Assembly (NCBI RefSeq): GCF_030294945.1
Contig: NZ_AP018448.1
Coordinates: 3,596,001-3,660,000, forward strand
Length of the DNA: 64,000 nucleotides
From: Streptomyces graminofaciens
GTDB lineage: Bacteria > Actinomycetota > Actinomycetes > Streptomycetales > Streptomycetaceae
Direction of reading: 5' to 3'
Under the pieces are notes generated by a model. It was not told where the DNA came from. It saw only the letters and a program-made list of their open reading frames with translations, and ran no database searches. The number at the start of each line of letters is the position of its first letter. Position 1 is the stretch's first letter. Position numbers and translations under genes: made by a program. Positions 22,947 to 45,607 of this stretch are shown in pieces.

Positions 22947-22963
22947 GTGCCGAGGAGCGGCAC
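22947..22963. promoter_or_regulatory. Palindromic operator, copy 1 (upstream of lyase-PKS operon)
   Basis: The sequence gtgccgaggagcggcac has 6-bp inverted arms GTGCCG/CGGCAC. It lies 183 bp upstream of the minus-strand 21-codon ORF and lyase operon. Read on the minus strand it is followed by a conserved GAGGGATGACATGTGAACG block, as at copy 2. Other copies are at 26294, 29252 and 45591. Confidence 0.75.
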
Positions 22964-22989
22964 GTGCGGGGACGGGGACGGGGTTCGCG

Positions 22990-24810
22990 TCAGCGTCGGC
23001 CGGCGGTGCGAAAGCCCCGGCGGTTCTTGCGGCCCAGTGCGCCGGTGGCGACGAGGTCTTCCAGGAGGGGGGCCGGTTTCTGCTCGGGGTGGGCGAGTTG
23101 GTCGTACAGGCGGTGCTGGATGGCCAGCGCGACGTCCAGGCCGATCGTGTCGAGGAGCGCGAAGGGGCCCATGGGGTGGCCGTAGCCGTTCCGGACGGCG
23201 CTGTCCGTGGCCTCGATGTCGGTGCCGGGGCGCCGCAGCAGATCGACCGCCGCGCCGAGGTAGGGGAAGAGGAGGCAGTTGACGATGAAGCCGGCGCGGT
23301 CGGGACAGGTGACCGTGGTTTTCCCCAGGCCGGCGGCGAAGGCCTGGGCGCCGGTGAACACGTCGTCGGAGGTGTCGTCGGTGCGGACCAGTTCGACGAG
23401 TCGCAGTACGGGTGCCGGGTTGAAGAAGTGCATGCCGACGACATCGGCGGGCCGTCCGGCGGCCTTCGCGCAGGCTGTCACGGACAGGCTGGACGTGGTG
23501 GTCGCCAGGACGGCTTCCGGTTTGGCGACCGTGCCGAGCCGGGAGAAGAGGAGTCGCTTGACGTCGAGGTCTTCCGCCACCGCTTCGATGATCAGATCGC
23601 GGTCGGCGACTGCTCGTATGTCCGTGGCAGGGGTGAGCAGCGGCAGGGCGGCCGCCTTCTGCCGGGGTGTCATCCGGCCGCGGCGGACAGCGTGGGTCAG
23701 GGATTCGGAGATCGCCGCGAGGGCCGTTTCGGCCTTCTCCCGGCTGCGCGCCACCAGCACGGTGGGATGGCCCGCGGTCGCCGTGACCTCCGCGATGCCG
23801 CGCGCCATGACGCCGGAGCCCAGGACGGCGACCGTACGCACCGGTCGGCGGACGGCGGGGGGATGGTCCACGGGCCTGTCCCGGGTTGTGCCGCCCTCGT
23901 TGCCCCCGCTGCCCCTGCTGCCCCTGCTGCCCCTGCTGCCCACGGTGGCCTCGTTGCCCTCGGTGTCGTAGCTGTAGAAGCCTTCGCCGGTCTTGCGTCC
24001 CAGGCGGCCGGAGTCGACCGTGCGGGTCAACAACGGGGCCGGGATGAAGGAGGCGTCGCCCGTCTGCCGGTGCAGTCGCGTCAGGGTCGCTTGGGCCGTG
24101 TCCAGCCCGATGGTGTCCAGCAGGCGCAGCGGCCCGGCCGGCAGACCGCAGCCGAGTCGCATCGCCGTGTCGATGTCGTCGCGGGTGGCATGGCCGGCGT
24201 CGAGAAAGGCCACGGACCGGTTCAGGTACGCCATCACGAGTGCGGTGGCGTCCTGTGCCGGTCCGGCGCCGATCTCGACCTGTGTCAGGCCCAGTTCGGC
24301 GATCAGCCGGTCCGCGGCGCTCGCGGTGGACGGGGAGGTCAGGGCGGTGGGTGCCGCTTCCACCGTGCCCGAGGGTCCGGGCGGGACGAGGAAGCGCAGA
24401 CCCGCGACCGACTCCGGTCGGCCGGACGCGATGGCGAGGTGGGGGACGGAGAGGGCGGAGGTCGTCGTGAGGACCGGGGCCTGCGAGACCTCGCCGATAC
24501 GGCGCAGTACGTCCGTCTTGACGGCCAGGTCGTCGGACACGGCCTCGATCACCACGGTGGCGTCCGCGAGTGCCGCCACGTCAGGTGTGAGGACGACCGA
24601 CTCCGCCGAGCCCGCGCTGCTTGCCTTGAGGCGGTCGCCGACCCGTGCGAGTGCGTCGAGGTCGGTGTCGACGGCCACGATGCGGTGGCCGGCCCGGTGG
24701 GCCAGGCGGAGGAACGCCTCGCCGACCGTGCCGAGGCCGACGATGCCGGTGAGGGGTGCGGTGAGGGGTGCGGTATGGGGTGCGGTGTGGGGTCGCTGAT
24801 CGGTCGTCAT
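22990..24810 (-). CDS. Fused tandem 3-hydroxyacyl-CoA dehydrogenase, N-terminal half degenerate
   Basis: The 606-residue protein contains two complete 3-hydroxyacyl-CoA dehydrogenase units. Unit 2 (326-606) looks active: GSGVMARGIA, His461 in GMHFFNPAPVLRLVE, GFIVN, and a C-terminal NGYGHPMGPFALLDTIG. Unit 1 (22-285) keeps the Rossmann GLGTVGEA and the LPAGPLRLLDTIG helix, but the catalytic HFFNP block is RFLVPPG (139-145), so the His is lost. The linker holds a Ser-Arg-Gly repeat from a DNA tandem repeat. With CCR it would turn acetoacetyl-type CoA esters via the enoyl-CoA (using an enoyl hydratase from elsewhere) into alkylmalonyl-CoA extender, or oxidise the PKS product. ATG at 24810 overlaps the CCR stop; a longer upstream frame is a shadow of CCR. 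Confidence 0.9.
   Translation of the reverse strand: MTTDQRPHTAPHTAPLTAPLTGIVGLGTVGEAFLRLAHRAGHRIVAVDTDLDALARVGDRLKASSAGSAESVVLTPDVAALADATVVIEAVSDDLAVKTDVLRRIGEVSQAPVLTTTSALSVPHLAIASGRPESVAGLRFLVPPGPSGTVEAAPTALTSPSTASAADRLIAELGLTQVEIGAGPAQDATALVMAYLNRSVAFLDAGHATRDDIDTAMRLGCGLPAGPLRLLDTIGLDTAQATLTRLHRQTGDASFIPAPLLTRTVDSGRLGRKTGEGFYSYDTEGNEATVGSRGSRGSRGSGGNEGGTTRDRPVDHPPAVRRPVRTVAVLGSGVMARGIAEVTATAGHPTVLVARSREKAETALAAISESLTHAVRRGRMTPRQKAAALPLLTPATDIRAVADRDLIIEAVAEDLDVKRLLFSRLGTVAKPEAVLATTTSSLSVTACAKAAGRPADVVGMHFFNPAPVLRLVELVRTDDTSDDVFTGAQAFAAGLGKTTVTCPDRAGFIVNCLLFPYLGAAVDLLRRPGTDIEATDSAVRNGYGHPMGPFALLDTIGLDVALAIQHRLYDQLAHPEQKPAPLLEDLVATGALGRKNRRGFRTAGRR
23911..23937. repeat. Three 9-bp in-frame tandem repeats in the dehydrogenase linker
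   Basis: Three copies of gcccctgct encode the Ser-Arg-Gly repeat between the two halves of the fused hydroxyacyl-CoA dehydrogenase. Unit length is a multiple of three, so slippage keeps the frame and only changes linker length. Confidence 0.9.
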
Positions 24811-26162
24811 GACGTTCCTCGCACCTTCTGCTCGCGGAAGCGATTGATGGCGTCGATGTGCTGGGCGCGCAGTTCGTGGTCGCGCACACCGAGGCCCTCC
24901 TGCGGCGCCAGGCAGAGGATGCCGACCTTGCCTTGATGGAGGTTGGAGTGGACCTCGTACGCCGCCTGCCCGGCCTGTTCCAACGGGTAGACCTTCGACA
25001 ACGTCGGATGGATTCTGCCCTTGGTGATGAGCCGGTTGGCCTCCCAGGCCTCTCGGTAGTTGGCGAAGTGAGAGCCGACGATGCGCTTCAGCGACATCCA
25101 CAGGTAGCGGTTGTCGTACTCGTGCATGTATCCGGAAGTGGACGCGCAGGTGACTACGGTGCCGCCCTTCCTCGTCGCGTACACCGATGCGCCGAACGTC
25201 TCCCGGCCCGGGTGTTCGAAGACGATGTCGACGTCCTCGCCGCCGGTGAGCTCCCGGATGCGCCCGCCGAACCGCTTCCACTCCTTGGGGTCCTGGGTGC
25301 GTTCGTCCTTCCAGAACCTGTAGCCCTCGGCGTTGCGGTCGATGACCGCTTCGGCGCCCAAGGAGCGGCAGATGGCCGCCTTCTGCGGCGACGAGACCAC
25401 GCAGACGGGGTTGGCGCCGCCGGCGAGCGCCAACTGGGTGGCGTACGAACCGAGCCCGCCGCTCGCGCCCCAGATCAGCACGTTGTCGCCCTGCTTCAGC
25501 TGGGCGCCGTTGCGGGAGACCAGTTGCCGGTAGGCGGTCGAGTTCACCAGCCCCGGAGCGGCGGCCTCCTCCCAGGTCAGGTGCTCGGGCTTGGGCATCA
25601 GCTGGTTGGACTTCACCAGCGCCAGCTCGGCGAGGCCTCCGAAATTGGTCTCGAAGCCCCAGATGCGCTGCTCGGGGTCCAGCATCGTGTCGTCATGGCC
25701 CTCGGGGCTCTCCAGTTCGACGGACAGGCAGTGCGCCACGACCCGGTCGCCCGCGCGCCACCGGTTGACTCCGGGCCCGGTGCGCAGCACCACCCCCGCC
25801 AGGTCGGATCCCAGCACGTGGTAGGGCAGGTCGTGGCGCTTGGCCTGGTCGCTGAGGCGTCCGTAGCGCTCCAGGAAGCCGAAGGTCGGCAGGGGCTCGA
25901 AGATCGAGGACCACACGGTGTTGTAGTTGATCGCGCTCGCCATCACGGCGATCAGGGCCTCGCCCGGTCCCGGCTCCGGTGTCGGAACCTCCTGCACCTG
26001 CAGGGACTTGCGAGGATCCTTCTCCTTCGAGTGCATGCCCTCGAACATCGCGGTGTCCTCCCGGCGCACCACGTTGCCCCGGTAGTGCCCCGGCAGGCGC
26101 AGACCCGTCACATCTCGCGGTGTGAGGTCCTCCGAGAGGAGAGCGCCGATGATCTCATCCAT
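24807..26162 (-). CDS. ccr: Crotonyl-CoA carboxylase/reductase
   Basis: The 451-residue MDR-fold enzyme shows the CCR hallmarks: AINYNTVWSSIFEPLPTFGFLERYG, HVLGSDLAGVV, GLVNSTAYRQLVS, the NADPH site LIWGASGGLGSYATQLA, IDRNAEGY, and VFEHPGRETFGASVY. It reductively carboxylates crotonyl-CoA to ethylmalonyl-CoA; related enzymes accept larger enoyl-CoAs. It heads the minus-strand operon with the double dehydrogenase (ATGA overlap) and is divergent from the P450 across an operator-containing region. Within a PKS locus it most likely supplies a branched extender unit, consistent with the non-HAFH acyltransferase motif of the PKS. The length and motifs are canonical; the acyl-pocket preference cannot be judged by eye. 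Confidence 0.94.
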   Translation of the reverse strand: MDEIIGALLSEDLTPRDVTGLRLPGHYRGNVVRREDTAMFEGMHSKEKDPRKSLQVQEVPTPEPGPGEALIAVMASAINYNTVWSSIFEPLPTFGFLERYGRLSDQAKRHDLPYHVLGSDLAGVVLRTGPGVNRWRAGDRVVAHCLSVELESPEGHDDTMLDPEQRIWGFETNFGGLAELALVKSNQLMPKPEHLTWEEAAAPGLVNSTAYRQLVSRNGAQLKQGDNVLIWGASGGLGSYATQLALAGGANPVCVVSSPQKAAICRSLGAEAVIDRNAEGYRFWKDERTQDPKEWKRFGGRIRELTGGEDVDIVFEHPGRETFGASVYATRKGGTVVTCASTSGYMHEYDNRYLWMSLKRIVGSHFANYREAWEANRLITKGRIHPTLSKVYPLEQAGQAAYEVHSNLHQGKVGILCLAPQEGLGVRDHELRAQHIDAINRFREQKVRGTS

Positions 26163-26464
26163 ATGCCATCCCGTGACGTGTCGAGTGGGGTCGAGCGGTT
26201 ACGACTCAGGCGGAGTTCGGGTCCGGCCGCGCGATGAAGGCACTGACGACCCGATTCAGGAGATGACCTTGAACGTTCACATGTCATCCCTCCGTGCCGC
26301 AGAGCGGCACGGGCAGAGGCGGAGCATGGACGGGCGGGCGCACGCTGGGGCACCGCCGACTGCCGGGACCAGCCCGTTCTTCCGCAACTCATCTCCCTGG
26401 CAAGGGAGTTCACCCGGCCGCGGCGGACCACGACCGAACGAGGACGACCGAGAGGAAGAGCGAG
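26163..26464. promoter_or_regulatory. Divergent control region CCR / P450
   Basis: The 302-bp region contains no convincing long gene. It carries operator copy 2 (26294-26310) and, on the minus strand, a block shared with the lyase promoter (GAGGGATGACATGTGAACG) that could start a 59-codon leader frame (ATG 26287) running out of frame into CCR. On the plus strand GAGAGGAAG precedes the P450 ATG by six to eight bases. Confidence 0.6.
26294..26310. promoter_or_regulatory. Palindromic operator, copy 2 (CCR / P450)
   Basis: The sequence gtgccgcagagcggcac is an inverted repeat with 7-bp arms GTGCCGC/GCGGCAC around three bases. It is 132 bp from the CCR start and 155 bp from the P450 start, so one bound factor could govern both directions. 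Confidence 0.75.
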
Positions 26465-27721: not shown

Positions 27722-27759
27722 CACCTGGCCTGCGGCGAGAACCTGCCACCGCGTAGCAC

Positions 27760-27807: not shown

Positions 27808-29142
27808 TCAGACGTCGAACTCCCCGTCCCTGGTCTCCGGCAGAGCCAGCACACACACCAGGCTGATCAGGCACATCCCGCCCGCGTAGAGACCGAGCAC
27901 CAGCGGTGACGCCCAGTGGCTGTTCAGCCAGGTGGCGACCAGCGGAGCGAAACCGCCGCCGAGGGTGTTGGCGAGGATGAACGTCGCGGACGCGCCGGTG
28001 TAGCGCAGGCGGGCGGGGAACAGCTCCGGCAGAAACGCCGCGATCGGTGCGAACATCAACGAGAACAGGGCCAGGCCGACCGTGAACGCGCCCGCGATGA
28101 CGAGCCCGTCACGGGTGTTCAGCGCCGCGAACATGGGCAGCGCCCACACGACGCACCCGATCGCGCCCGCGAGGATCACCGGCCGTCTGCCCACCCGGTC
28201 GGCCAGCCGGGCGGCTGGCACGGTGACGGCGGCCGCGGCGACGGCCCCCGCGCTCGCGGCGGCCAGCATGGTGCTCTGGGAGATGCCGAGGGCTTTCGGC
28301 CCGTACGAGATGCTGTAGACGATCGTCAGGTAGTAGACCGACGAGCCGCCGATGCCCGCGCCGATCCCGAGCAGCAGCCGGCCCGGGTGTTCCCTGAGCA
28401 GAGCGCCGAGCGGAAACCGGGGCGCGGCACCCGTGGTGCGTCCCCGCTCCGCGAACACCGGGGACTCGGTGACCCTCGTACGTACCCACAGCCCCATGAC
28501 GATCAGTACGGCGCTCAGCAGGAAGGGCACGCGCCAGGCCCCGGCGGCGAAGCCGTCCCGGCCGGCGATCGAGAGGGTCGGCAGAATCACGGCGCTGGAC
28601 AGCAGGAAGCCGAGCAGCGGGCCCACCTGGGGTATCGAGGCGTACATCGCCCGGCGCCCCGGGGGCGCGTGCTCGGCGGCCAGCAGGACCGCGCCGCCCC
28701 ACTCGCCGCCCATACTGACGCCCTGCAGCAGGCGGAGCGCCACCAGCAGGACGGGGGCGAGAAGGCCGGCGGTCTCGTACGTCGGAAGCAGCCCGACCCC
28801 CACCGTCGCCACGCCCATCAGGAGGAGTGAGATGACCAGTGCCCGTTTGCGGCCCAGTCGGTCGCCGATCGTGCCGAACAGCACCACGCCCACGGGGCGG
28901 GCCAGGAACGCGGCGGTGAAGGTGAGGAAGGCGGCGAGGGTCTGGAGCGTGGTGTTGCCTGCCGGAAAGAAGGCCGGGCCGAGGACGAGTGCGGCGGTGG
29001 TGCCGTACACGGCGAAGTCGTAGTACTCGACCGTGGTTCCGATGAGGCTCGCGACGGCGACCCGTGACACCGTGCGCTTGTCACCGCTCCGGTCGCTCGG
29101 GGCGGTGTCGGGGGGTGCGAGCGGTCTGACGCTTTCGGACAT
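27808..29142 (-). CDS. MFS transporter, metabolite:H+ symporter (MHS) type
   Basis: The 444-residue protein has twelve hydrophobic segments and MHS-family marks: VEYYDFAVYGT at the first helix, RPVGVVLFGTIGDRLGRKRAL as the loop 2-3 motif, GGEWGGAVLLAAEHAPPGRR, and a second GRRPV loop. Relatives import shikimate, aromatic acids, 2-oxoglutarate or betaines. The ATG at 29142 (MSESVRPL) is chosen over a longer frame that would overrun the operator. It is a close paralogue of the transporter at 45714 (same length, same motifs), and both share the palindromic operator. It may import a precursor or export the product of this locus. Confidence 0.92.
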   Translation of the reverse strand: MSESVRPLAPPDTAPSDRSGDKRTVSRVAVASLIGTTVEYYDFAVYGTTAALVLGPAFFPAGNTTLQTLAAFLTFTAAFLARPVGVVLFGTIGDRLGRKRALVISLLLMGVATVGVGLLPTYETAGLLAPVLLVALRLLQGVSMGGEWGGAVLLAAEHAPPGRRAMYASIPQVGPLLGFLLSSAVILPTLSIAGRDGFAAGAWRVPFLLSAVLIVMGLWVRTRVTESPVFAERGRTTGAAPRFPLGALLREHPGRLLLGIGAGIGGSSVYYLTIVYSISYGPKALGISQSTMLAAASAGAVAAAAVTVPAARLADRVGRRPVILAGAIGCVVWALPMFAALNTRDGLVIAGAFTVGLALFSLMFAPIAAFLPELFPARLRYTGASATFILANTLGGGFAPLVATWLNSHWASPLVLGLYAGGMCLISLVCVLALPETRDGEFDV

Positions 29143-29251
29143 GAGCGGCTCACTTCTGCTGGGACTGCGGCCTCGGATGCCGGTGATCCGCACCACAGTG
29201 GGGACTTGGTGCCAGCAAGGTGCGGCCTGGCCGAAACCCGCGCACGCGGAT

Positions 29252-29268
29252 GTGCCGTTCTGCGGCAC
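29252..29268. promoter_or_regulatory. Palindromic operator, copy 3 (MFS / XRE-cupin)
   Basis: The sequence gtgccgttctgcggcac is an inverted repeat with arms GTGCCG/CGGCAC. It is located 109 bp from the MFS start and 89 bp from the XRE-cupin GTG. Presence before the regulator gene itself suggests autoregulation. Confidence 0.75.
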
Positions 29269-29357
29269 GCGGGAGGCGGCCGCGCCGTGGGCACTCCGTC
29301 GAAGTGCCGACCGTGGCCGGGGTCCGCTGCTCTCTGACCTGTGCCTAGAGTGGTGCT

Positions 29358-29960
29358 GTGTCTTCAGGTAATGGTGTGGTGGCGCGTAATGTGCGCTTTC
29401 TCAGAGAGCAGCGTGGTCTGTCTTTGGCTGAGTTGGCCCGACAGGCGGGGCTGGCGAAACAGACGCTGTCGAATCTGGAGCAGGGGACGGGTAATCCCAC
29501 GGTGGACACCTTGTTCTCGATCGCGGCGGCGCTGGGTGTGCCGGTCACCAGGCTGGTGGCGGAACGCGAACAGGTGATGACCGTGCAGCGGGGCGACGAG
29601 GTCGTCTGGGAGCGGCACGAGGGCTATGAGTCCCGGGCGTTGGACCACATCTACGGGTCCGGTGTCATCGAGAACTACGTGGTGCGGATCGGTGAGGACG
29701 CGGGGGCGCCGTGTGATGCGCATCCGGTGGGGACGCTGGAACACCTGTATGTGATCAGCGGGCGGGTACGCGTCGGTCCCGCCGACGGGCCGGTGGAGCT
29801 GTCGGCCGGTGACTTCGTGCGCTACCCGGGCGACCGGCCGCACGTGTACGAGTCGTTGGACGGCGAGAGCCTGGTGCACATCGTGGTCAGTGTGCCCCGG
29901 GTGCAGCCCGGCACCAGCGGCACGACCGTCGTCCGTACCCACGGCGGCGGCCGCCACTGA
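29358..29960 (+). CDS. XRE family regulator with C-terminal cupin sensor domain
   Basis: The 200-residue protein has an N-terminal helix-turn-helix of the XRE type (residues 8-62; REQRGLSLAELARQAGLAKQTLSNLEQG, NPTVDTLFSIAAALG) and a C-terminal cupin with the usual Gly/His pattern (EHLYVISGRVRVGP, GDFVRYPGDRPHVYE). Such proteins regulate catabolic or antibiotic genes in response to small metabolites bound in the cupin. It is divergent from the first MFS gene with an operator copy between them, making it the best candidate for the factor that recognises the GTGCCG-CGGCAC palindrome. GTG at 29358 is the first plausible start; no strong ribosome-binding site precedes it, so the transcript may be leaderless. 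Confidence 0.92.
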   Translation: MSSGNGVVARNVRFLREQRGLSLAELARQAGLAKQTLSNLEQGTGNPTVDTLFSIAAALGVPVTRLVAEREQVMTVQRGDEVVWERHEGYESRALDHIYGSGVIENYVVRIGEDAGAPCDAHPVGTLEHLYVISGRVRVGPADGPVELSAGDFVRYPGDRPHVYESLDGESLVHIVVSVPRVQPGTSGTTVVRTHGGGRH

Positions 29961-30001: not shown

Positions 30002-30844
30002 TCAGGCCCCGGACAGCGCGCCGATCCCGGCCGGTACCGCCTGCCGCGCCCTCGCCGAGGAGACTGCCCGGCTCGCCTCGTACGCCACGCGGCGCAGCGC
30101 CGGGGCGAAGCGGGCGGGGTCGAAGCGGCGGTCCGCGCCCGCGATGGAGAGGGCCGCCACGGGGCGACCGGCGGGCCCCATGATCGGTACGGCGACGCAG
30201 GTGAGGCCGAGGACGGCTTCCTGGCGGTCGTAGGCGATGCCGTCCTGGCGGATGCGGCGCAGATCGGCCCGGAAGCTGCAGGGGTCGGCGAGGGTGTACT
30301 CGGTGCGCGCGGTCAGCCCGGCCTCGATGGCGGCCTCGGCGGCGTCGTGGTCGAACGCCAGGAGGGCTTTGCCGACCCCCGTGCAGTAGGCGGGCAGACG
30401 GGCGCCGATCCGGGAGGGCGAGCGGGCCGCCCGGTGACCGTGGAGCTTGTTGACGTAGACGATGTTCGTGCCGTGGAGCACGGCGAGATGGACGGTCTCG
30501 CGGGTCAGCTCGTACAGATCCGCCAGGTGGGGCAGCAACCGCTCCTGAAGCAGTGGAGTGGTGGGGCCGTAGGCGCGGCTGCCGATGTCGATGAGCTGAG
30601 CGCCCAACCGGTAGTCGCTGCCGACCCGCTCGACGAGGTCGTTGCGCTGCAGGATGCCCAGCAGCCGGAAGGTCGTCGACTTGCTCATCCGGGTGCGGCG
30701 GGCCAGCTCGCTCACGCCGATCTCGCCGTCCATCTCGGCGAGGGACTTCAGCAGGGTGAGCGCCTTGTCGACCGCGGTCCGCTGTTCCGGTGCGGTGTCC
30801 GGTGCGGGTGCGTTGTGGTGCGGGAGGGGGGAGTGGAGTGGCAT
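30002..30844 (-). CDS. IclR family transcriptional regulator
   Basis: The 280-residue protein has an N-terminal winged helix-turn-helix (about residues 25-85; AVDKALTLLKSLAEMDGEIG, ELARRTRMSKSTTFRLLGIL) and a C-terminal IclR effector domain (TVHLAVLHGTNIVYVNKLHG, GVGKALLAF). IclR proteins often control aromatic catabolism. It is divergent from the ring-hydroxylating dioxygenase operon, which it most likely regulates in response to phenylpropionate, cinnamate or an intermediate. The ATG at 30844 follows GGGAG; an upstream in-frame ATG at 30886 would overlap the palindromes and is less likely. Confidence 0.9.
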   Translation of the reverse strand: MPLHSPLPHHNAPAPDTAPEQRTAVDKALTLLKSLAEMDGEIGVSELARRTRMSKSTTFRLLGILQRNDLVERVGSDYRLGAQLIDIGSRAYGPTTPLLQERLLPHLADLYELTRETVHLAVLHGTNIVYVNKLHGHRAARSPSRIGARLPAYCTGVGKALLAFDHDAAEAAIEAGLTARTEYTLADPCSFRADLRRIRQDGIAYDRQEAVLGLTCVAVPIMGPAGRPVAALSIAGADRRFDPARFAPALRRVAYEASRAVSSARARQAVPAGIGALSGA

Positions 30845-30882
30845 GGGGGGCTCCCGGTGAGCGGTCACGACGATCCGGCGTT

Positions 30883-30905
30883 CCATTAAAATGGACGCAC
30901 GTCCA
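30883..30905. promoter_or_regulatory. Overlapping palindromes, candidate IclR operator
   Basis: CCATT-AA-AATGG (30883-30894) overlaps TGGACG-CA-CGTCCA (30892-30905). Both are perfect inverted repeats in the short region between the IclR gene and the dioxygenase operon. The spacing fits a regulator that controls the operon and represses itself. Confidence 0.6.
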
Positions 30906-31041
30906 ATCTAGGGGACCGTTTCCGGCTTGTAAACGGGTGGGAAGCCCGCGCGCACGATGCGGCTGAATCGAATCCCCGCGCTGTTCCACATCCCGGCACG
31001 GTGGCTGGGCAGGGCGTCGCCGGCCGACGTCTGCTGTGCCC

Positions 31042-32346
31042 ATGGAGCGACACCGTGAGCCGTCCGTCGACGTCGGCGCCTACTTCGACCTCGACCGGGG
31101 CCTGATCGACCGGACGATCTTCGGCGATGCCGGCCTGTACCGGCAGGAGCTGCGCCGTGTGTTCGCGCCGAGCTGGCTGTTCCTCGCGCACGAGAGCCAG
31201 TTCGCGAAGCCGGGCGACTTCTTCACCACGTACATGGGTGAGGATCCGGTCATCGTCACGATGGGCCGGGACCGGAAGCTGCGGGCCTTCCTCAACGCCT
31301 GCCGCCACCGGGGCATGCGGGTCTGCCGCGCCGACGCGGGCGCCACGAAGGCGTTCACGTGCAGCTATCACGGCTGGGCGTACGACACCTCCGGCAAGCT
31401 GATCAACGTACCCAACGGCGAGGACTACCCCGCCCACTTCGAGCAGGAGAAGTGGGGACTGATCGAGGTCGCGCAGCTCGACACGTACAAGGGGCTCGTC
31501 TTCGCGACCTGGAACCCCGAGGCGCCGCCGCTGGTCGAGGCGCTGGGCGGCCTCGCCTGGTATCTGGACGCCATGCTCGACCGCGACCCGGAAGGCACCG
31601 AGGTCGTCGGCGGGGTGCACAAGTGGGTGCTGGAGGGCAACTGGAAGCTCGCCGCCGAGCAGTTCGCCTCCGACTGGTACCACGTCAACATCTCGCACGC
31701 CTCGGCGCTGATGGTCATGTCGCCGACGGGCAAGGGGCCCAAGACCGAGATCGTGCAGACACCGGGACGGCAGTACACCGATCCGCTCGGCCACGGACAC
31801 GGCTTCCCCACCCACCCCAAGAGCCGCTTCGACGACCGGGTCGTGCACGACTGGTACGACTACGACGCGCTGCGCGAGCGTCTCGGTGACGCCCGCGTCG
31901 AGGGCCCGATGACCACCGGCCACGGCACGGTCTTCCCGAACTTCTCCTATCTGCCGGTCAACGGCTCCATCCGTGTCTGGCATCCCAAGGGCCCGGACCG
32001 GATGGAGGTGTGGGCCTGGACGCTCGTCGACAGGTCGATGCCGGACGAGGTCAAGGACGCCCAGCGGATCTACAACCTGCGCACGTTCGGACCGACGGGC
32101 ATCTTCGAGCAGGACGACGGCGAGAACTGGTCGGAGGTCCAGGCCACCGCCCACGGCTTCGTGTCCGGCTCCATGACCCTCAACTACCAGATGGGCCTGG
32201 GACTCGAGACGCAGGACGGTATCCATCCCGGTACCACCGGCCATCTCTACAGCGACGGCGCCGCCCGCGGCTTCTACACCCGCTGGCGCGACCTGATGAA
32301 CACACCCGCCTGGCACGAGAACGTCACGGAGAAGGACACCCCATGA
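31042..32346 (+). CDS. hcaE: Ring-hydroxylating dioxygenase alpha subunit, 3-phenylpropionate/cinnamate type
   Basis: The 434-residue catalytic subunit has a Rieske domain (CRHRGMRVC then CSYHGWAYD) and a C-terminal iron domain with the ligand run SDWYHVNISH providing two histidines. Together with its own ferredoxin, reductase and beta subunit it forms a class II three-component dioxygenase of the biphenyl/phenylpropionate type, adding O2 across the ring to give a cis-dihydrodiol. Assignment to phenylpropionate/cinnamate rests mainly on the co-transcribed mhpB homologue. A GTG two codons upstream (31036) is an alternative start; no clear ribosome-binding site is seen for either. The stop overlaps the ferredoxin ATG. 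Confidence 0.9.
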   Translation: MERHREPSVDVGAYFDLDRGLIDRTIFGDAGLYRQELRRVFAPSWLFLAHESQFAKPGDFFTTYMGEDPVIVTMGRDRKLRAFLNACRHRGMRVCRADAGATKAFTCSYHGWAYDTSGKLINVPNGEDYPAHFEQEKWGLIEVAQLDTYKGLVFATWNPEAPPLVEALGGLAWYLDAMLDRDPEGTEVVGGVHKWVLEGNWKLAAEQFASDWYHVNISHASALMVMSPTGKGPKTEIVQTPGRQYTDPLGHGHGFPTHPKSRFDDRVVHDWYDYDALRERLGDARVEGPMTTGHGTVFPNFSYLPVNGSIRVWHPKGPDRMEVWAWTLVDRSMPDEVKDAQRIYNLRTFGPTGIFEQDDGENWSEVQATAHGFVSGSMTLNYQMGLGLETQDGIHPGTTGHLYSDGAARGFYTRWRDLMNTPAWHENVTEKDTP

Positions 32347-34007: not shown

Positions 34008-34111
34008 CACGGCGCCACCTTGCCGTGCCGTCCACCGGCACACCCGCTCCCCAAACCACCCCCTCCGCGCTGGAATGACCCCCGAGCGCGGACCGCAGGA
34101 GGACCCACCCC

Positions 34112-34669
34112 ATGAGCATCCACCCCCCGGAGTCGACGACTCCCTCGGCCGTCTCGTACGACGACATCCGGCTGCACTTCGAGGTGCAGCGCCTGTACGC
34201 CGTCGAGGCGCGGCTGCTCGACGAGCACCGGTACGCGGACTGGCTGGAGTTGTTCGCCGACGATCTGCACTACTGGGCGCCGGTGCGCACGAACCGGCTG
34301 CGCCGTCAGCAGGCCCTGGCGGACGGGTCGCCCGGCGAGGTGGCGATCTTCGACGAGACCAAGGCGAGTCTGGCCTGGCGGATCCGTCGCTTCGACTCGG
34401 GCATGGCCTGGGCCGAGGATCCGCCCTCAAGGACCCGGCACCTGATCACCAACGTCCTGGTCAGGGCGGCCGACGAGCCCGGCGAGTACATCGCGGAGTC
34501 GGCGTTCCTCTGCTACCGCAACCGGCTGGAGCGCGAGGTCGACATCTACGCCGGCGGTCGCACGGACACCCTGCGCCGTACCGGGGACGGCGGCCTGCTG
34601 ATCGCCCGCCGCACGATCCTGCTCGACCAGAACGTCCTGCTCGCCAAGAACATCAGCACCTTCCTGTGA
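34112..34669 (+). CDS. hcaF: Ring-hydroxylating dioxygenase beta subunit
   Basis: This 185-residue NTF2-fold protein (YDDIRLHFEVQRLYAVEARLLDEHRYADWLELFADDLHYW arrangement, then the FYCYRNR-like FLCYRNRLEREV and a C-terminal RRTILLDQNVLLAKNISTFL) is the structural partner of the alpha subunit in alpha3beta3 dioxygenases. Beta subunits usually sit next to alpha; here it comes after the ferredoxin and reductase genes, separated by a repeat-bearing gap. The RBS GCAGGAGG lies upstream of ATG 34112. Confidence 0.9.
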   Translation: MSIHPPESTTPSAVSYDDIRLHFEVQRLYAVEARLLDEHRYADWLELFADDLHYWAPVRTNRLRRQQALADGSPGEVAIFDETKASLAWRIRRFDSGMAWAEDPPSRTRHLITNVLVRAADEPGEYIAESAFLCYRNRLEREVDIYAGGRTDTLRRTGDGGLLIARRTILLDQNVLLAKNISTFL

Positions 34670-38439: not shown

Positions 38440-38576
38440 TCCCGCTTCCCGCCACGACGGCCGACGGCACAGGCAGCAGACCTGGCCGTCGGCCCCGGCG
38501 TTTTCACAGGTCGCCCGTGCTGTACAGCGGCACGACCAGTGGAGCCCGGCCCCGGTCACCGGTCACCGTAACCCTC

Positions 38577-39566
38577 GTGCTTGCCGCTATCGCCATCTCC
38601 CAGAGCGCCACCGATCCCCTGTCCGGGCTCGTCCTGCGCGACGTACCGAAACCCGAACCCGAGCCCGGCTGGTCCCGGGTGCGTGTCATGGCCTCCTCGC
38701 TGAACATGCACGACCTGTGGACCCTGCGGGGCGTCGGCCATCCGCCCGAGCGGCTCCCGATCATCCTCGGCTGCGACGCCGCCGGATACGACGAGGACGG
38801 CAACGAGGTCATCGTCCACCCGGTGCTGGGCGACCCGGACGCCGGCCGCGGCGACGAGACGCTGGACCCGAACCGGGCGCTGCTGTCCGAACGGCACGAC
38901 GGTTCGTTCGCCGAGTGGCTGACCGTCCCCACCCGCAACCTGGTGCCCAAGCCCGCGTGGCTGTCGTTCGACGAGGCCGCCTGTCTGCCGGTCGCCTGGA
39001 CCACCGCCTACCGCATGCTGTTCACCCAGGCCAGGATCACCGCGGGCGACCGGGTCCTCGTCCAGGGCGCGGGCGGCGGTGTCGCCTCCGCCGCGATTCG
39101 GCTCGCGGTGGCCGCGGGCGCCGTCGTCTACGCCACCAGCCGCAGCGAGGACAAGCGCGCCGAAGCCCTCGGCTGGGGCGCCAGGGCCGCCGTACCCACC
39201 GGGGAGCGGCTGCCCGAGAAGGTCGACGTGGTGATCGAGACGGTGGGAGAGGCCACCTGGTCGCACTCCCTGAAGTCACTCCGTCCCGGCGGCACCGTCG
39301 TGATCGCCGGCGCCACCAGCGGCACCAACCCGCCCGCCGACCTGGGCCGCGTCTTCTACCTCCAGCAGCGCATCCTCGGCTCCACCGGCGGTACCCGCGC
39401 CGAACTGGTCGCGATGCTCCGCATGCTCGACGCGACCGGCACCCGCCCGGTGATCGACCGGACCCTGCCGCTCACGGACATCCACAAGGGATTCCAGCTC
39501 ATGATCGACGGCGGGCTGACCGGAAAGCTCGTCATCCATCCGTCGGACTCCCGCCCGCAGAAGTAA
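38577..39566 (+). CDS. MDR family reductase without zinc site (quinone/enoyl reductase type)
   Basis: This medium-chain dehydrogenase (329 residues from GTG 38577) has LGCDAAGYD where zinc enzymes carry GHE, so it lacks the catalytic zinc; the NADPH motif is VLVQGAGGGVASAAIRLA. It resembles quinone oxidoreductase and 2-enoyl reductases. It could reduce the side-chain double bond of a cinnamate-type substrate before ring attack, which would explain its place in the operon. An upstream GTG at 38517 (349 residues) is an alternative start with AGG six bases before it; 38577 aligns better with the family N-terminus. Confidence 0.8.
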   Translation: MLAAIAISQSATDPLSGLVLRDVPKPEPEPGWSRVRVMASSLNMHDLWTLRGVGHPPERLPIILGCDAAGYDEDGNEVIVHPVLGDPDAGRGDETLDPNRALLSERHDGSFAEWLTVPTRNLVPKPAWLSFDEAACLPVAWTTAYRMLFTQARITAGDRVLVQGAGGGVASAAIRLAVAAGAVVYATSRSEDKRAEALGWGARAAVPTGERLPEKVDVVIETVGEATWSHSLKSLRPGGTVVIAGATSGTNPPADLGRVFYLQQRILGSTGGTRAELVAMLRMLDATGTRPVIDRTLPLTDIHKGFQLMIDGGLTGKLVIHPSDSRPQK

Positions 39567-39575
39567 GGAACGCCC

Positions 39576-40514
39576 ATGCCCGCAGCAGCCGTCGGGTTGT
39601 CCCACTCGCCCCTCATCGGCAAGAACGACCCGGAGCCCGAGGTCCTGGCCCGCGTCGACGAGGCCGTCGAGACCGCGAAGACCTTCATCCGGGCCTTCGA
39701 CCCGGACCTGGTCGTGCTCTACGCACCCGACCACTACAACGGCTTCTTCTACAAGGAGATGCCCCCGTTCTGCCTGGCCACCGAGGCCCACGCGGTGGGC
39801 GACTTCGGCACGGCCGCCGGCCCGCTGTCCGTCGACACCGCCGCCGCCAAGGCCCTGGCCCAGGGCGTGCTCGACCGCGGTATCGACCTCACCGTCTCCG
39901 CCCGCATGACCGTCGACCACGGCTTCGCCCAGCCCCTCGAAGTCCTCTTCGGCGGCATCGACCGAGTCCCGGTCGTGCCCGTCTTCGTCAACGGGGTGGC
40001 CACCCCGCTCGGCCCGGTCAGCCGGATCAGGGCCCTGGGCACGGCGATCGGTGAGGCCGCCGCCGCACTCGACCGCCGCGTGCTGTTCCTCGCCTCCGGC
40101 GGCCTCTCGCACGACCCGCCGGTCCCGGTGCTGGACGGAGCGCCGCCCCGCGTCGCCGACGCGCTCATCGAGGGCCGGCCGCCGACCCCCGAGCAGCGCG
40201 CGAAGGGCGAGCAGCGGGTCGTCCAGGCGGGCCGCGACTACGCCGCCGGATCGACCGCGATGATCCCGATCAACCCCGCCTGGGACAACCGCCTCCTCGA
40301 CCACCTCGAACGCGGTGAGCTGGCGGAGTTCGACTCCTGGACCGTGGACGGCATGGCCGAGGAGGCGGGCGGCTCCGCCCACGAGGTCCGGGCGTGGATC
40401 GCCGCTTTCGCGTCCCTCGCCGCGACCGGCCCGTACGACATGACCTCCCGCTTCTACGAGGCCATCCCCGCGTGGATCGCCGGGTTCGCCGTGGCCACCG
40501 CGGAAGGGCGGTGA
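39576..40514 (+). CDS. mhpB: 2,3-Dihydroxyphenylpropionate 1,2-dioxygenase (class III extradiol)
   Basis: The 312-residue protein matches E. coli MhpB along its length: LSHSPLIG, the metal/acid region YAPDHYNGFFYKEMPPFC, VDHGFAQPLE, FVNGVATPLGP and SGGLSHDPPVP. It opens 2,3-dihydroxyphenylpropionate or 2,3-dihydroxycinnamate next to the side chain. This is the strongest specificity marker in the operon and shows that the upstream dioxygenase acts on a phenylpropanoid. It follows the MDR gene by nine bases and overlaps or abuts mhpD. Confidence 0.95.
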   Translation: MPAAAVGLSHSPLIGKNDPEPEVLARVDEAVETAKTFIRAFDPDLVVLYAPDHYNGFFYKEMPPFCLATEAHAVGDFGTAAGPLSVDTAAAKALAQGVLDRGIDLTVSARMTVDHGFAQPLEVLFGGIDRVPVVPVFVNGVATPLGPVSRIRALGTAIGEAAAALDRRVLFLASGGLSHDPPVPVLDGAPPRVADALIEGRPPTPEQRAKGEQRVVQAGRDYAAGSTAMIPINPAWDNRLLDHLERGELAEFDSWTVDGMAEEAGGSAHEVRAWIAAFASLAATGPYDMTSRFYEAIPAWIAGFAVATAEGR

Positions 40515-41332: not shown

Positions 41333-41436
41333 CGAAGACCGAGGTCGTCGTCATCGGGTCCCACGTGGCGACACGGCTGCGGCCTGCTCGCCCTCCGGGA
41401 CACGGCCGACGACCTGGTCGGCCGTGTCCGTGACCG
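41329..41436 (+). pseudogene. Possible truncated start of a flavoprotein gene
   Basis: GTG at 41329 overlaps the mhpD stop (GTGA) and opens with a [10 protein letters not shown] strand like the first FAD-binding strand of flavoprotein monooxygenases, but the next residues lack a Gly-rich loop and the frame ends after 35 codons. It may be the remnant of a deleted next gene in the operon (for example an mhpA-type hydroxylase) or a chance ORF over the terminator. Confidence 0.3.
41398..41429. terminator. Strong stem-loop at the end of the hca/mhp operon
   Basis: Perfect 13-base arms ggacacggccgac (41398-41410) and gtcggccgtgtcc (41417-41429) around a 6-base loop lie in the 256-bp gap between mhpD and the convergent aldehyde dehydrogenase. 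The rest of the gap shows no other clear feature. Confidence 0.75.
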
Positions 41437-41588
41437 CCCTGTTCAGGTCGACCACGAGACGCTCACCCTCGGCTGCGGAGGCGAGCGCTCCTCCTTCCTC
41501 CGCCACTCCGGGCGAGGCGGCCTCGGCGAGCTGAACCGCAGCCCCGGCGGCACGGACGGCCCGCCGGGCGCGGTCCGCCCGGCCGGCC

Positions 41589-43013
41589 TCATGCCTTACG
41601 GATGGACAGGACCTGGATGTCGGTGTGCTCCAGCACGCCTTCCAGGCCGTTCTCGACGCCGATGCCGGAGGCCTTGTGGCCGCCGAAGGGCAGGTCGGGG
41701 GTCGGGATCGCCTCCTGGTTGATCCAGACGGTGCCGACCTCGATCCGCGCCGCCAGTTCCTCGGCCGCCGCGATGTCGCGGCTCCAGACGGTGCCGGCGA
41801 GCCCGTACTCGGAGTCGTTGGCGCGGCGGACGACGTCGTCGACGTCCCGGAACCGCAGCAGGGGGACGACCGGGCCGAACGGCTCCTGGGTGACGATCGC
41901 CGCGTCGTCGGCGGGGTCGTCCACCACGGTCGGGTGCACGAAGTAGCCGGGGCCGTCCGGGATCGCGCCCTCGACCAGCAGCCTGGCGCCGGAGCCGATG
42001 GTCGCCTTGATCAGGCCGACGACCTTCTCGTACTGCGCGCGGTTCTGGAGGGGGCCCAGCTGGACGCCGTCCTCCATGCCGTTGCCGACCTTGACGGACC
42101 GTGCGAGCTCGGCGAATCGCTCCGCGAACGCGTCGTAGACGTCCTCGTGCACATAGACCCGCTTGGCGGCGATGCAGAGCTGGCCGCTGTTGACGAAGCA
42201 GGTCCAGAAGACCCGCCTGGCGACCTCGTCCACGTCCACGTCGGGCAGCACGATCGCGGCGTCGTTGCCGCCCAGCTCCAGGGTGACGCGGGAGAGGTTG
42301 CGGGCGGCGGAGGCCATGACCTTGCGGCCGGTCGCGCTGGAGCCGACGAAGGCGATCTTGCGGATGCCCGGGTGCCCGGTGAGTCTCGGGCCGAGACTGT
42401 CACCACCGCTGATGATGTTGACGACGCCGGCGGGTACGACATCGGCCAGCAGCTCGCCGACACGCAGCGTGGTGAGCGGTGTGTACGGCGAGGGCTTGAC
42501 CACGATGGTGTTGCCGGCGAGCAGCGCCGGGCCGATCTTCTTGGCGGCCAGGACGACCGGGTAGTTCCACGGCACGATGCCGGCGACGACGCCGAGCGGT
42601 ACGCGGCGCACCCGGACGCGGTGGGTCCCGGTCTCGGTGATCTCGTCGTCGGGGTACTCCATGGCGGCGTGCGCGTCGAGCCAGTCGGCGAAGGTCGTGA
42701 TCTCGATGCGCGCGTCGGCCAGCGGTTTGCCCTGCTCGGTGGTGAGCAGTACGGCCAGTTCCCCGGTGTGCTCGCGGACGGTCGACGCGCAGGCGGCCAG
42801 CACGGCGCGGCGCTCGTCCACAGGTGTGGCGCGCCAGGTGACGAAGGCCCGTCGCGCGGCTGAGACGGCGGCGTCCAGCTGGGCGTCGCCGGCGTCGGGG
42901 ACGTGGCCGACGATCTCCTCGGTGGCGGGATTCAGCACGCTCAGCAGGCCGCCTTCGGCGCCGACGAGGCGGCCGCCGATGAGCATGCGATGGGTGGGTT
43001 CGGGGTGGATCAC
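41589..43013 (-). CDS. NAD(P)-dependent aldehyde dehydrogenase
   Basis: The 474-residue ALDH has PWNYPV, the Glu in VTLELGGND, the catalytic Cys in [11 protein letters not shown], and the C-terminal EPFGPVVPL and [10 protein letters not shown] blocks. It resembles aminobutyraldehyde/betaine-aldehyde type enzymes with a broad range. It is the third gene of the LuxE-LuxC operon, so it may oxidise an aldehyde formed by LuxC or protect against it. GTG at 43013 is chosen because AGGGAA lies nine bases upstream; GTG 43022 is also in frame. The much longer frame upstream is a shadow of LuxC. Confidence 0.9.
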
Positions 43014-43030
43014 CGACGTCACTTCCCTGG

Positions 43031-44410
43031 TCAGCGGATACAGGCCTTCGTGCGCATCAGGAACGATTCGAGGTAGTCGTCGTGCGGGATGCCGGGGGGA
43101 AGCCAGTACGTCGGGTGGTCGCCGAGGTAGACGTTGGCGATGCTGGGCTCGTCGATGAGCCGGTCCACGAGCGTCTCGTCGTCGGTGACGGCGGTGAGCA
43201 CCACGGTGTCCTTGAGCGGCTCGACCCCGGCCTCCGGGCTCCACGGCGCCACCCACACACAGGGAAAGCGCTGCTCGACACGGGTCTGTGGGGCATCGGG
43301 GCGGGATACCTGGTGCACGGCGGGGCGCAGCACCGCGGTGCCGTCCCCGAGGTCGTCGACGATCCCGTCGCCGCCCAGCCAGGGGGTGGTGCCGGCGGCC
43401 TTGGCCAGCAGGTACTGCTCGATCCGGCGGGCCTCCTCGATCGGCTTCACGGGCAGCACCGCCTTGGGGTCCTGCGGCGGCAGGCTGGGGAGTACGGAGA
43501 GCCGCTCGGCGATCGCCTGTGCCACCGGTGCCGGGTCGCCCTCGACGAACACCGCGGTGGTGTTGATGCACGCGGCTCCGCCGTGAGCGCTGACCGAGGA
43601 GACGATGGTGTCCAGGTAGGACGTCCAGTCGGCGTCCTTGGTGACGAGGAACTTCGACCGCCCCGGCCCCTGCGGCAGCACCGTCGCCATCGAGGAGTAC
43701 TTGCGCACCACCTCGTCGTCGCCGTACACCATCGCCCGGTCCGCGCCCCGCACGACCTCGTCGGCGGTGGCGTGGTCGGTCGGCAGCAGGGCGACCTGGT
43801 CGGCGCCGAAACCGGCGTCGCGCAGGGCGGTGATCCACCGGTGGGAGCTGAACGGTTCGCGGCTCGACGGCCGCACCGCCACCCGGTAGCCGAGGGCGAG
43901 GGACTGCAGCCACAGGGTGTGGGCGCTCGGCGTGTTGCCGGGGGCGTGGACGGCGAACACGTTTCCGCGACGGGCCCACACGCCGCCGCCGTTGCGGGTG
44001 CGCGGGTCGCGCCAGTCGTTGACCGCCCCGGTGGGCCGGGCCTCCTGGGAGCTGAGGTAGGCGAGATCCGTGTACTGCACGGTGTATTCGAGGGCCATCT
44101 CGGTCGTGATCCAGGGCAGGCCCGACACCCGGCACACCGCGTGCTGGTACTCCGTGACGGACAGTCCACCGACGGTTTCGGTGGCGAAGGCCTTGCCCGC
44201 CCTGGCGATGGCGTCCAGGCGCTGTTCCAGCGGCAGCGGGTCGGCCTTGCGCAGCGCCGACATGGTCCTGGCGACGAAGAGCGGGGGGACCAGGCTCAGT
44301 TCGGCGAACGGCGCGCCGTAGATGTCCTTGACGGTCTGGATGTTCTTCGACCGGTACGCGCCGCCGGGGCCCAGTGCGTCGAGTCGGACGAGGTCGCTCA
44401 TCACGCTCAT
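43031..44410 (-). CDS. luxC: LuxC-like acyl-CoA/acyl-protein reductase
   Basis: The 459-residue protein belongs to the LuxC family (ALDH-fold fatty acyl reductases). It has VFAVHAPGNTPSAHTLWLQSLALGYRVAVRPS in the cofactor region and GGAACINTTAVFVEG with the probable catalytic Cys. LuxC reduces activated acyl groups to aldehydes with NADPH. The start ATG 44410 overlaps the LuxE-like stop as ATGA, so the two are translationally coupled and likely form a complex. Here there are no luciferase genes, so the pair probably produces an aldehyde for another purpose. The shared operator suggests it serves the PKS locus. Confidence 0.88.
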   Translation of the reverse strand: MSVMSDLVRLDALGPGGAYRSKNIQTVKDIYGAPFAELSLVPPLFVARTMSALRKADPLPLEQRLDAIARAGKAFATETVGGLSVTEYQHAVCRVSGLPWITTEMALEYTVQYTDLAYLSSQEARPTGAVNDWRDPRTRNGGGVWARRGNVFAVHAPGNTPSAHTLWLQSLALGYRVAVRPSSREPFSSHRWITALRDAGFGADQVALLPTDHATADEVVRGADRAMVYGDDEVVRKYSSMATVLPQGPGRSKFLVTKDADWTSYLDTIVSSVSAHGGAACINTTAVFVEGDPAPVAQAIAERLSVLPSLPPQDPKAVLPVKPIEEARRIEQYLLAKAAGTTPWLGGDGIVDDLGDGTAVLRPAVHQVSRPDAPQTRVEQRFPCVWVAPWSPEAGVEPLKDTVVLTAVTDDETLVDRLIDEPSIANVYLGDHPTYWLPPGIPHDDYLESFLMRTKACIR

Positions 44411-45507
44411 CAGTAGACTCCCTCGATCACGGCTTCGCCGTCGAAGACCTGGACCGGGGTCACATCCGCCAGGGAGTCGCCCACCTGTCCTCGCGGCCCC
44501 GGCACACGGGTGGCCTCGTCGCGGTCGAGGTTGTTGGGCAGCAGGAAGCTCCGGCTGACGTGGTTGACCACCACCCGGCCGCGGGCGCCGTGTTCGACCT
44601 GTTTCCCGCTGTCGGGGTCGACGACCCGGAAGGTGATGAACGGTGCCGGCGGATCGAAGACGCACTCCCCGGCGTCCTCGGTGACCCGCTGTCCGCAGCT
44701 GTGCAGCATCATCGTGCTGCCGAAGAACCCGATGAGCGGGAGGCCGGGAAAGACCTCGCTGCCGAGCACGTCACGGGTGCCGGCGTCCATGTGCGCGCCG
44801 GCCCAGATGATCGCCCTGGCCTTGTCCCGCACCAGGTCGGTCAACTCGTCGTCGACGGCGAGGCGTTCGAGTACCGGTGGCGTGATGGCGAGGACGCCCA
44901 CGTCCTGGCTGCGTAACACGTGCCGGGCCTGTTCGAGCAGATGGTCGGCGTAGGCGCGGGCGTCCTCGGTGCGGCCGGAGGAGATGAGTCGTTTGACCCA
45001 GCGCGGGTCCATGTCGATCGAGAACGCGTGGCCACCGCGATCCTTGGCGAGCCGCGCATACGCGTAGCCGCCCATGTGCGGACCGGTGGGAAACATCATC
45101 AGCCAGTTCGCGCCCCTCGGCGCGCCGTGCGCGTCCAGGGTCGAGTCGAGCCATTCCTGCGACTTGCGGAACCAGTCCCGCAGGAGGACCACGCGCTTGG
45201 GCTGGCCGGTCGTGCCACCGCTCTCGAAGATCCCGCAGATCTCCGGCTTGTCGCCGTAACCGCGCGGAACGAGGTCCTCGACGCGTACGTCGCGCAGCTC
45301 GTCGCACACGTTGGGGAACAACGCCAGATCATCGACCCCCCGGACATCGGTCAGCGGGTCGAAATCGAGTGTCTTCGCCCGCGCCAGCCAGAACGGCGAC
45401 CCTGTCCTCGGGTCGAAGTGCCATCGCATCGCCGCCCTGATGAACTCGCCCGGGTCATGGCCGTCTCCGATCGGCCTGTCGAGAACGGTGTCGATATCGT
45501 CGATCAT
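44410..45507 (-). CDS. luxE: LuxE/phenylacetate-CoA ligase-like acyl-activating enzyme
   Basis: The 365-residue protein is an ANL-fold acyl activator with FESGGTTGQPKRVVLLRDWF as the ATP loop and FFGSTMML later, lacking the full C-terminal lid of classical CoA ligases; this is the LuxE acyl-protein synthetase pattern. LuxE adenylates a fatty acid, takes it on a Cys and hands it to LuxC. The ATG at 45507 follows CCGGAGG. It heads a minus-strand operon LuxE-LuxC-ALDH divergent from the second MFS gene, with the palindromic operator between them. Substrate (fatty or aryl acid) is not evident. Confidence 0.82.
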   Translation of the reverse strand: MIDDIDTVLDRPIGDGHDPGEFIRAAMRWHFDPRTGSPFWLARAKTLDFDPLTDVRGVDDLALFPNVCDELRDVRVEDLVPRGYGDKPEICGIFESGGTTGQPKRVVLLRDWFRKSQEWLDSTLDAHGAPRGANWLMMFPTGPHMGGYAYARLAKDRGGHAFSIDMDPRWVKRLISSGRTEDARAYADHLLEQARHVLRSQDVGVLAITPPVLERLAVDDELTDLVRDKARAIIWAGAHMDAGTRDVLGSEVFPGLPLIGFFGSTMMLHSCGQRVTEDAGECVFDPPAPFITFRVVDPDSGKQVEHGARGRVVVNHVSRSFLLPNNLDRDEATRVPGPRGQVGDSLADVTPVQVFDGEAVIEGVY

Positions 45508-45590
45508 GACGCCTCCGGTGTCTCGCCCCTCGTGCGGGCCACGCTCGGTGCGGTCATTCCAGCGGGGAGGGGGTGACGCGGGAAGGACGC

Positions 45591-45607
45591 GTGCCGCAGG
45601 GCGGCAC
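45591..45607. promoter_or_regulatory. Palindromic operator, copy 4 (LuxE operon / second MFS)
   Basis: The sequence gtgccgcagggcggcac is an inverted repeat identical in both 7-bp arms to copy 2. It lies 84 bp from the LuxE-like start and 107 bp from the MFS start, in a divergent promoter region. Confidence 0.75.

Follow-up and report, generated by a model that had tools for sequence, protein, structure and literature searches.

In Escherichia coli, 3-phenylpropionate and cinnamate are degraded by the hca/mhp pathway, whose regulators HcaR and MhpR are of the LysR and IclR types, respectively. In Streptomyces scabies, phenylpropanoid catabolism includes SCAB_2141, a gene induced about 20-fold by p-coumarate but not by ferulate; the passages of that study covered here tie no regulator or operator to the gene (PMC6904314). 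XRE-cupin regulators have been described in Pseudomonas aeruginosa, where they include ErfA, PsdR, and PauR. In the parts of PMC7901475 covered here, most of them have one or two targets (PauR has 29 genes), and all those with determined regulons are repressors that bind mostly at core-promoter sites and in the region beside their own gene. A combined computational and experimental search has been directed at the palindromic sites of XRE regulators, as far as the covered parts of PMC12565409 go, and neither TGCCG nor CGGCA occurs in the main text of that paper. Here we analyze a 17-bp palindrome, GTGCCG-n5-CGGCAC, that recurs in front of hca/mhp-like genes, a type I polyketide synthase (PKS) operon, and a LuxE-LuxC-like operon in a 64,000-nt stretch of Streptomyces graminofaciens (NZ_AP018448.1, positions 3,596,001 to 3,660,000), called the window below. 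With a probability that we put at roughly 70%, the palindrome is the operator of an XRE-cupin protein encoded in the window, set at a fixed distance from its promoters, and this predicted regulator would switch aromatic-acid and polyketide pathways together. Among the literature matches listed (titles and abstract openings; most subscription journals lie outside the coverage), none describes a regulon of this kind.

Like the E. coli pathway, the locus encodes HcaF-, HcaB-, and MhpB-like proteins, as compared through NCBIfam models only, but an XRE-cupin protein and an IclR-family protein stand in place of HcaR and MhpR. As in the P. aeruginosa systems, so far as the covered parts of their description go, an HTH_3 domain precedes a Cupin_2 domain, the operators are palindromic, and the targets are neighboring metabolic enzymes and transporters. 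Unlike in those systems, the predicted geometry is that of an activator, about nine promoters are involved, the regulator's own promoter is out of register, and the regulon would join a catabolic cluster with a PKS cluster. The site beside the regulator's own gene, a P. aeruginosa trait, is present in the window (29252) but is in register with a divergent transporter gene, MFS1.

The motif, its conservation, its placement at operon heads, and its spacing were computed. GTGCCG-n5-CGGCAC occurs exactly five times in the window (at 22947, 26294, 29252, 34025, and 45591), against a mean of 0.02 in shuffled windows, and a scan of the whole genome (one 11.6-Mb contig) returned 14 exact copies rather than many random ones, five of these inside 22.7 kb; such clustering argues that the palindrome is not a product of chance. 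Outside the window there are nine copies, of which five lie in long open reading frames (ORFs) of high GC3, one (L012; G000 9016150-9016168) stands at the 5′ terminus of a called ORF for an IS200-like transposase (Y1_Tnp), and three (L001, L003, and L009) have no gene assignment. An earlier note on this DNA had listed four copies, all intergenic and 80 to 185 bp from start codons, and had described the intervening hca/mhp operon as lacking the motif. Its four copies (22947, 26294, 29252, and 45591) are indeed exact and, under the gene models used, intergenic. The distances hold for the genes termed CCR, P450, MFS1, XRE-cupin, LuxE, and MFS2 (84 to 171 bp) but not for the lyase, whose start lies 248 bp from its operator, or 183 bp when counted to a 21-codon ORF in front of it. 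A fifth exact copy had been missed at 34025..34041 (+), 87 nt before hcaF; a copy with one mismatch (GTGCTG; 38517..38533, +) lies 60 nt before the start codon of a zinc-type dehydrogenase gene (ADH), and a degenerate one with two mismatches (30983..30999, +) lies 59 nt before an in-frame ATG of hcaE at 31042. All three transcription units drawn in the hca/mhp cluster therefore carry a copy, exact or degenerate, and the earlier observation is confirmed in part.

Operator 1 (22947..22963) precedes the minus-strand operon of a HutH-like aromatic amino acid lyase (HAL; 21143..22699) and the PKS (13806..21146). Operator 2 (26294..26310) is common to the divergent genes for a crotonyl-CoA carboxylase/reductase (CCR; 24807..26162, −), which heads a unit with a two-domain 3-hydroxyacyl-CoA dehydrogenase (HAD; 22990..24809, −, with its start inferred inside ORF 22990-25281), and for a cytochrome P450 (26465..27721, +). 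Operator 3 (29252..29268) lies between MFS1 (27808..29142, −, start inferred inside ORF 27808-29268) and the XRE-cupin gene (29358..29960, +). In the hca/mhp cluster the sites precede hcaE (31042..32346, +), hcaF (34112..34669, +; heading an hcaF-hydrolase-dihydrodiol dehydrogenase-CoA ligase unit), and ADH (38577..39566, +; heading ADH-mhpB-hydratase, with mhpB at 39576..40514, +). The last operator (45591..45607) is common to divergent LuxE (44410..45507, −; heading LuxE-LuxC-ALDH) and MFS2 (45714..47048, +, start inferred inside ORF 45573-47048).

Orthologues of the XRE-cupin protein at 79 to 90% identity define 28 loci in Streptomyces, Actinomadura, and Nonomuraea, and three matches are farther removed; the protein searches of genomes scored just the best few first-look candidates per genome. 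When all palindromes with 6+6 half-sites and spacers of 0 to 20 were ranked over 30 loci (the 28 orthologue loci plus L093 and L094, with runs of N removed), GTGCCG-n5-CGGCAC came first, with 45 copies in 23 loci, the next palindrome having 24. The spacer of 5 is specific: other spacers from 0 to 15 gave at most two copies each, save for 13 copies of GTGCCG-n11-CGGCAC in L065-L094, a number far above that of the neighboring spacers. One other candidate, a CTGGCT-n16 palindrome, was rejected as operator; it falls in the hcaE coding sequence. All 104 half-sites of the 52 exact sites have a pyrimidine at position −1, a base that the search ignored, and the operator extends to 19 bp, Y-GTGCCG-n5-CGGCAC-R. 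Nine genome copies keep this 19-bp rule, five in the window and four of the nine outside it. A phylum-wide HcaF search (396 genomes) gained one distant locus, HcaF relatives at about 47 to 50% identity (L131-L134) lack the site, bar one copy with one mismatch inside hcaF (L131), and 19 LuxE relatives at 54 to 60% (L016-L034), each covered over about 4 kb, have no exact site.

Where the site occurs, it marks the heads of operons. Counted at up to one mismatch (the L085 HAL row, whose start falls outside its locus, is left out), the motif precedes hcaF in 24/29 orthologues, ADH in 17/21 rows (one genome contributing two), hcaE in 14/28, and MFS1 in 8/8. In a separate comparison, MFS1 and MFS2 orthologues were free to match one another. 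Internal operon genes are nearly devoid of it: FdR 1/30, Fdx 0/29, and ABH (0/26), SDR (0/24), and ACS (0/24) none at all. The hcaF and ADH promoters are thus among the most consistently marked, and the earlier exclusion of hca/mhp from the regulon does not stand.

A further regularity concerns the distance to the predicted promoter. Taking as −10-like any hexamer with at least two of T1, A2, and T6, and counting the offset from the first base of the operator, we found such a hexamer at offset 46 or 47 in 69/72 distinct sequences from seven target classes, compared with 8.6 on average and never more than 18 in shuffles; other offsets averaged 5.5 and peaked at 14. The rule holds across classes (ADH 15/15, hcaE 12/12, hcaF 21/22, MFS 11/12, LuxE 5/6, P450 3/3, and CCR 2/2), and all nine target promoters of the window fit it, among them HAL-PKS (TTTCCT at offset 47 on the minus strand), MFS1 (CACCTT at offset 46), and LuxE and MFS2 (offset 46 on both sides). 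Control sites outside the 72 were in register in 2/7 cases before the XRE-cupin gene and in 1/9 before the IclR gene. Start codons stand at offset 58 to 60 in 14/15 ADH promoters, all in frame, and in 13/13 hcaE promoters, counting the two-mismatch site of the window, in frame in all but L069; these positions fit leaderless mRNAs, and hcaE of the window is probably leaderless.

From the fixed offset, the center of the operator is placed about 50 to 51 bp before the predicted transcription start. The gap from the end of the site to the −10 hexamer measures 29 to 30 nt, and that to the expected −35 element about 6 nt. A center about 50 bp upstream of the start, just before a poor −35 region, is typical of activators, and an activator site is the most likely reading of this geometry. 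The hcaF and LuxE promoters look homologous, which by our estimate leaves about five independent promoter lineages. A rival account, in effect a sub-case of the proposal, keeps operator and binder but makes the XRE-cupin protein a repressor, released from the DNA on ligand binding as in Pseudomonas. In its favor, the XRE-cupin regulators with determined regulons in the covered parts of PMC7901475 are all repressors, and the p-coumarate induction of SCAB_2141 would fit derepression equally well. A roadblock, however, could work at any phase and would in most cases be expected to overlap the core promoter, whereas here the spacing is kept in about five unlike promoter lineages and the site stops short of the expected −35. 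We consider the repressor account as a whole rather unlikely. Should binding be granted, activation would be the better supposition, and repression relieved by the ligand would keep a sizeable share of the probability.

Fixed spacing, together with clustering and operon-head placement, also opposes the idea that the palindromes are chance occurrences, RNA hairpins, or repeats with no regulatory role. An IS200-like ORF of this genome does have the same 17-mer type at its 5′ end, and repeats exist in some other genomes, but transcription of the targets is predicted to start downstream of the sites, which would therefore be absent from the target's own transcript, and the sole Rfam match of the window lies elsewhere. 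This idea is exceedingly improbable.

The likely binder is the XRE-cupin protein, favored because its gene co-occurs with hcaF and because the neighboring IclR gene has a palindrome of its own. The protein scores above the cut-offs of PF01381 and PF07883, with an N-terminal Cro/cI-type helix-turn-helix (HTH) domain and a C-terminal cupin domain, and its residues 8-186 match 1y9q in a phmmer search. Among 392 genomes, an XRE-cupin orthologue is found at 82% identity or more in nine (this one included) and at 46 to 50% in six, and an HcaF orthologue at 85% or more in eight and at 68 to 71% in six. The two occur together in 14/15 of the XRE-positive and 14/14 of the HcaF-positive genomes, the exception (G139) having its XRE gene at a contig end. 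Genomes of the first XRE tier hold a median of 9 of the 19-bp sites (n=9), compared with 3 in the others (n=369; p=9e-6), and those of the second tier a median of 6 (n=6; p=0.001). The KQTLS stretch of the HTH is identical in both tiers and reads KQALS in L094 (55%). Site counts alone mislead, since some genomes hold repeated copies of the 19-bp pattern: one identical 19-mer is present five times in G212, and 18 to 51 copies of the pattern are found in some genomes.

The adjacent IclR-family protein (30002..30886, −) is a rival candidate binder of the palindrome. Its gene is conserved in most loci, IclR proteins often control aromatic catabolism, and a copy with up to one mismatch occurs in 9/33 upstream regions of the IclR gene, compared with 7/37 for the XRE gene. 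Exact copies stand 113 to 189 bp before the IclR gene in L074, L076, L077, L079, L080, L083, and L086, mostly out of register with it. The IclR promoter carries a different palindrome, TGGACG-n2-CGTCCA (30892..30905), a candidate IclR operator that is kept or lost with IclR identity: at up to one mismatch it is present in 25/25 loci with IclR at 74% or more and in 0/8 with IclR at 48 to 54% (L084 counts among the 25 by its 76% IclR, which has the exact palindrome, and not by its 31% paralogue). It is probably the IclR autoregulatory site. The GTGCCG motif does not track IclR identity; it persists at up to one mismatch in 7/8 loci with IclR at 48 to 54%, and it is exact in L087 and L090, the two cleanest loci, where IclR is 52 to 53% identical and XRE-cupin 80 to 81%. 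Just one of the nine sites before IclR genes is in register with a −10-like hexamer. We regard binding by IclR as very doubtful.

The earlier note had also named the XRE-cupin protein as binder, on the ground that a copy precedes its own gene. This probable assignment is supported by co-occurrence and by the separate IclR palindrome, but the ground given fails: the promoter with which operator 3 is in register is that of divergent MFS1, not that of the XRE-cupin gene, and the window is not among the two of seven cases in which an XRE site is in register. The gene's own promoter appears to be leaderless (TAGAGT, 6 nt, GTG; 29346-29358), with a TAnnnT-type hexamer at this place in 27/28 orthologues. 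In L074 (Streptomyces scabiei), where the XRE promoter is in register with a one-mismatch site, the gene may be autoregulated.

Several observations weigh against the proposal. In most cases the operator is not in register with the promoter of the XRE gene itself. An exact site was not found in 6/28 orthologue loci (L067, L073, L075, L078, L082, and L092), several of which are cut by contig ends, and L067 (20.6 kb, 87% XRE) and L092 (4.8 kb) have no site even at up to one mismatch; nor do the second-tier loci L130, L128, and L129 show a good site at the expected places. Three of the 72 sites break the spacing rule, and if the choice falls on the best site within 330 bp, an in-frame start codon at 58 to 60 is seen in 11/16 hcaE rows. 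The −35 region is weakly defined, with a match of at least 4/6 in 11/72, compared with about 4 in shuffles, and, with the source genomes related to one another, the site counts lack independence. The copies before IclR genes and the repressor-only record of P. aeruginosa belong on the same side. The out-of-register promoter and the bare loci L067 and L092 would also suit a regulator encoded elsewhere, with the XRE-cupin gene a mere neighbor, but that gene co-occurs tightly with the marked genes and XRE-positive genomes have an excess of sites; we hold this to be improbable, if less so than binding by IclR.

In the mechanism that we propose, in which start sites, binder, ligand, activation, and the PKS/Lux product are all predictions, a dimer of the XRE-cupin protein would bind the 19-bp operator, centered about 50 bp before the transcription start and just upstream of the poor −35 region. 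With its cupin domain holding a phenylpropanoid-type acid or the CoA ester of one, it would activate transcription of the hcaE, hcaF, and ADH operons for aromatic-ring cleavage, both MFS symporters, HAL-PKS, CCR-HAD, P450, and LuxE-LuxC-ALDH. One signal would then turn on the uptake and breakdown of phenylpropionate- or cinnamate-like acids along with a polyketide pathway. SCAB_2141 bears on the signal. The primers used for its quantitative PCR match the hcaB-like dihydrodiol dehydrogenase gene that belongs to the orthologous hcaF operon of L074, and this operon has a one-mismatch site 88 bp before hcaF. Because SCAB_2141 rises with p-coumarate, a phenylpropanoid-type signal is likely, whichever regulator mediates it. 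The fullest version of the model, a ligand-responsive activator that acts from a single fixed site centered at about −51, often serves two divergent promoters from one operator, and couples destruction of phenylpropanoid-type acids to the making of a new polyketide/aldehyde product, even where the genes for that product are distant from the regulator gene, is offered as tentative.

The proposed link between the PKS and LuxE-LuxC genes can be followed in other genomes. HAL orthologues were sought in the genomes of 26/28 orthologue loci (L083 and L092 were left out), and six were found. In five of the six (HAL 87 to 95%), the region from P450 to CCR/HAL carries the operator, exact in L147, L148, and L149 and with one mismatch in L145 and L146. 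MFS2-LuxE-LuxC-ALDH is contiguous with HAL and P450 in four genomes, with the operator exact in L145, L146, and L147 and with one mismatch in L148. The sixth HAL genome (L144/L150, 75%) has neither the operator nor a contiguous MFS2-LuxE-LuxC-ALDH. A regulon tying lyase-PKS, CCR, and P450 to LuxE-LuxC, as the earlier note envisaged, is borne out by these four genomes, in which the genes are contiguous and the operator (zero or one mismatch) sits in the same promoters; with hca/mhp wrongly excluded, that interpretation as a whole is partly supported. In the draft genomes of Streptomyces sp. cf386, S. caeruleatus, and S. ipomoeae, the PKS/Lux cluster lies on another contig than the XRE-cupin/hca locus, and the operator is retained in relatives with this arrangement too. 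Among 238 genomes of the genus, the only HAL at 87% or more is that of the window, four others reaching 74 to 77%.

Gene calls rest on Pfam and NCBIfam matches. HcaF (194.6 bits against a cut-off of 145; PRK10069), HcaB (333.1 against 330; PRK06200), and MhpB (500.9 against 291; PRK13370.1-4) pass their models and stand together with the hcaE-like ring-hydroxylating dioxygenase alpha subunit, for which HcaF would be the beta subunit; MhpB is of the 3-carboxyethylcatechol 2,3-dioxygenase type. The strict equivalog models NF042946, NF042947, and NF042950 are not passed (HcaE 449 against 830, HcaF 149.6 against 230, and HcaB 324.8 against 450 bits), and we therefore call the proteins Hca-like only, as their substrate may differ. 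MFS1 and MFS2 resemble 2A0106-type metabolite/H+ symporters below the NCBIfam cut-off. The names LuxE (acyl-protein synthetase-like) and LuxC (acyl reductase-like; ORF 43031..44665, −) are carried over from the earlier note and not from Pfam, which gives just a sub-threshold AMP-binding match for LuxE and an Aldedh match for LuxC.

The PKS combines an N-terminal AMP-binding domain with KS, AT, DH, KR, and carrier-protein domains. Opposite its gene lies an Rfam match to the ASpks antisense RNA (17832-17900, +; 59.5 bits, gathering 52), which may reflect just conserved PKS coding sequence. The window lyase has kept two stretches, RSHAAG and EDHVSM, and these align with HALs of solved structure, so its product may be urocanate rather than cinnamate. 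A second lyase, 66% identical to it, is encoded at G000 5340757-5342283; this is perhaps the housekeeping HutH, so that the PKS cluster may have recruited its own lyase as a duplicate. The 21-codon ORF, MKRQLERDFVRPETAEAEAAA (22699-22764, −), has a TGATG end that overlaps the lyase start, and similar short starts, read by eye, are seen near the same place in L139 to L142; it is possibly a coupled leader peptide or small precursor. Downstream of the HAL and CCR operators (22927-22946 and 26274-26293, −) there is a further common block, GAGGGATGACATGTGAACG, partly present in L139 too, and P450-HAL and CCR-HAD may owe their promoters to a duplication.

If the proposal is right, it would supply an operator, a regulator, and an inducer class for an uncharacterized PKS/LuxCE cluster of several Streptomyces, and feeding a cinnamate- or phenylpropionate-type acid could reveal its product. 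An activating XRE-cupin regulator would contrast with the repressor-only picture from Pseudomonas, and the breakdown of plant-type aromatics would be tied to specialized metabolism.

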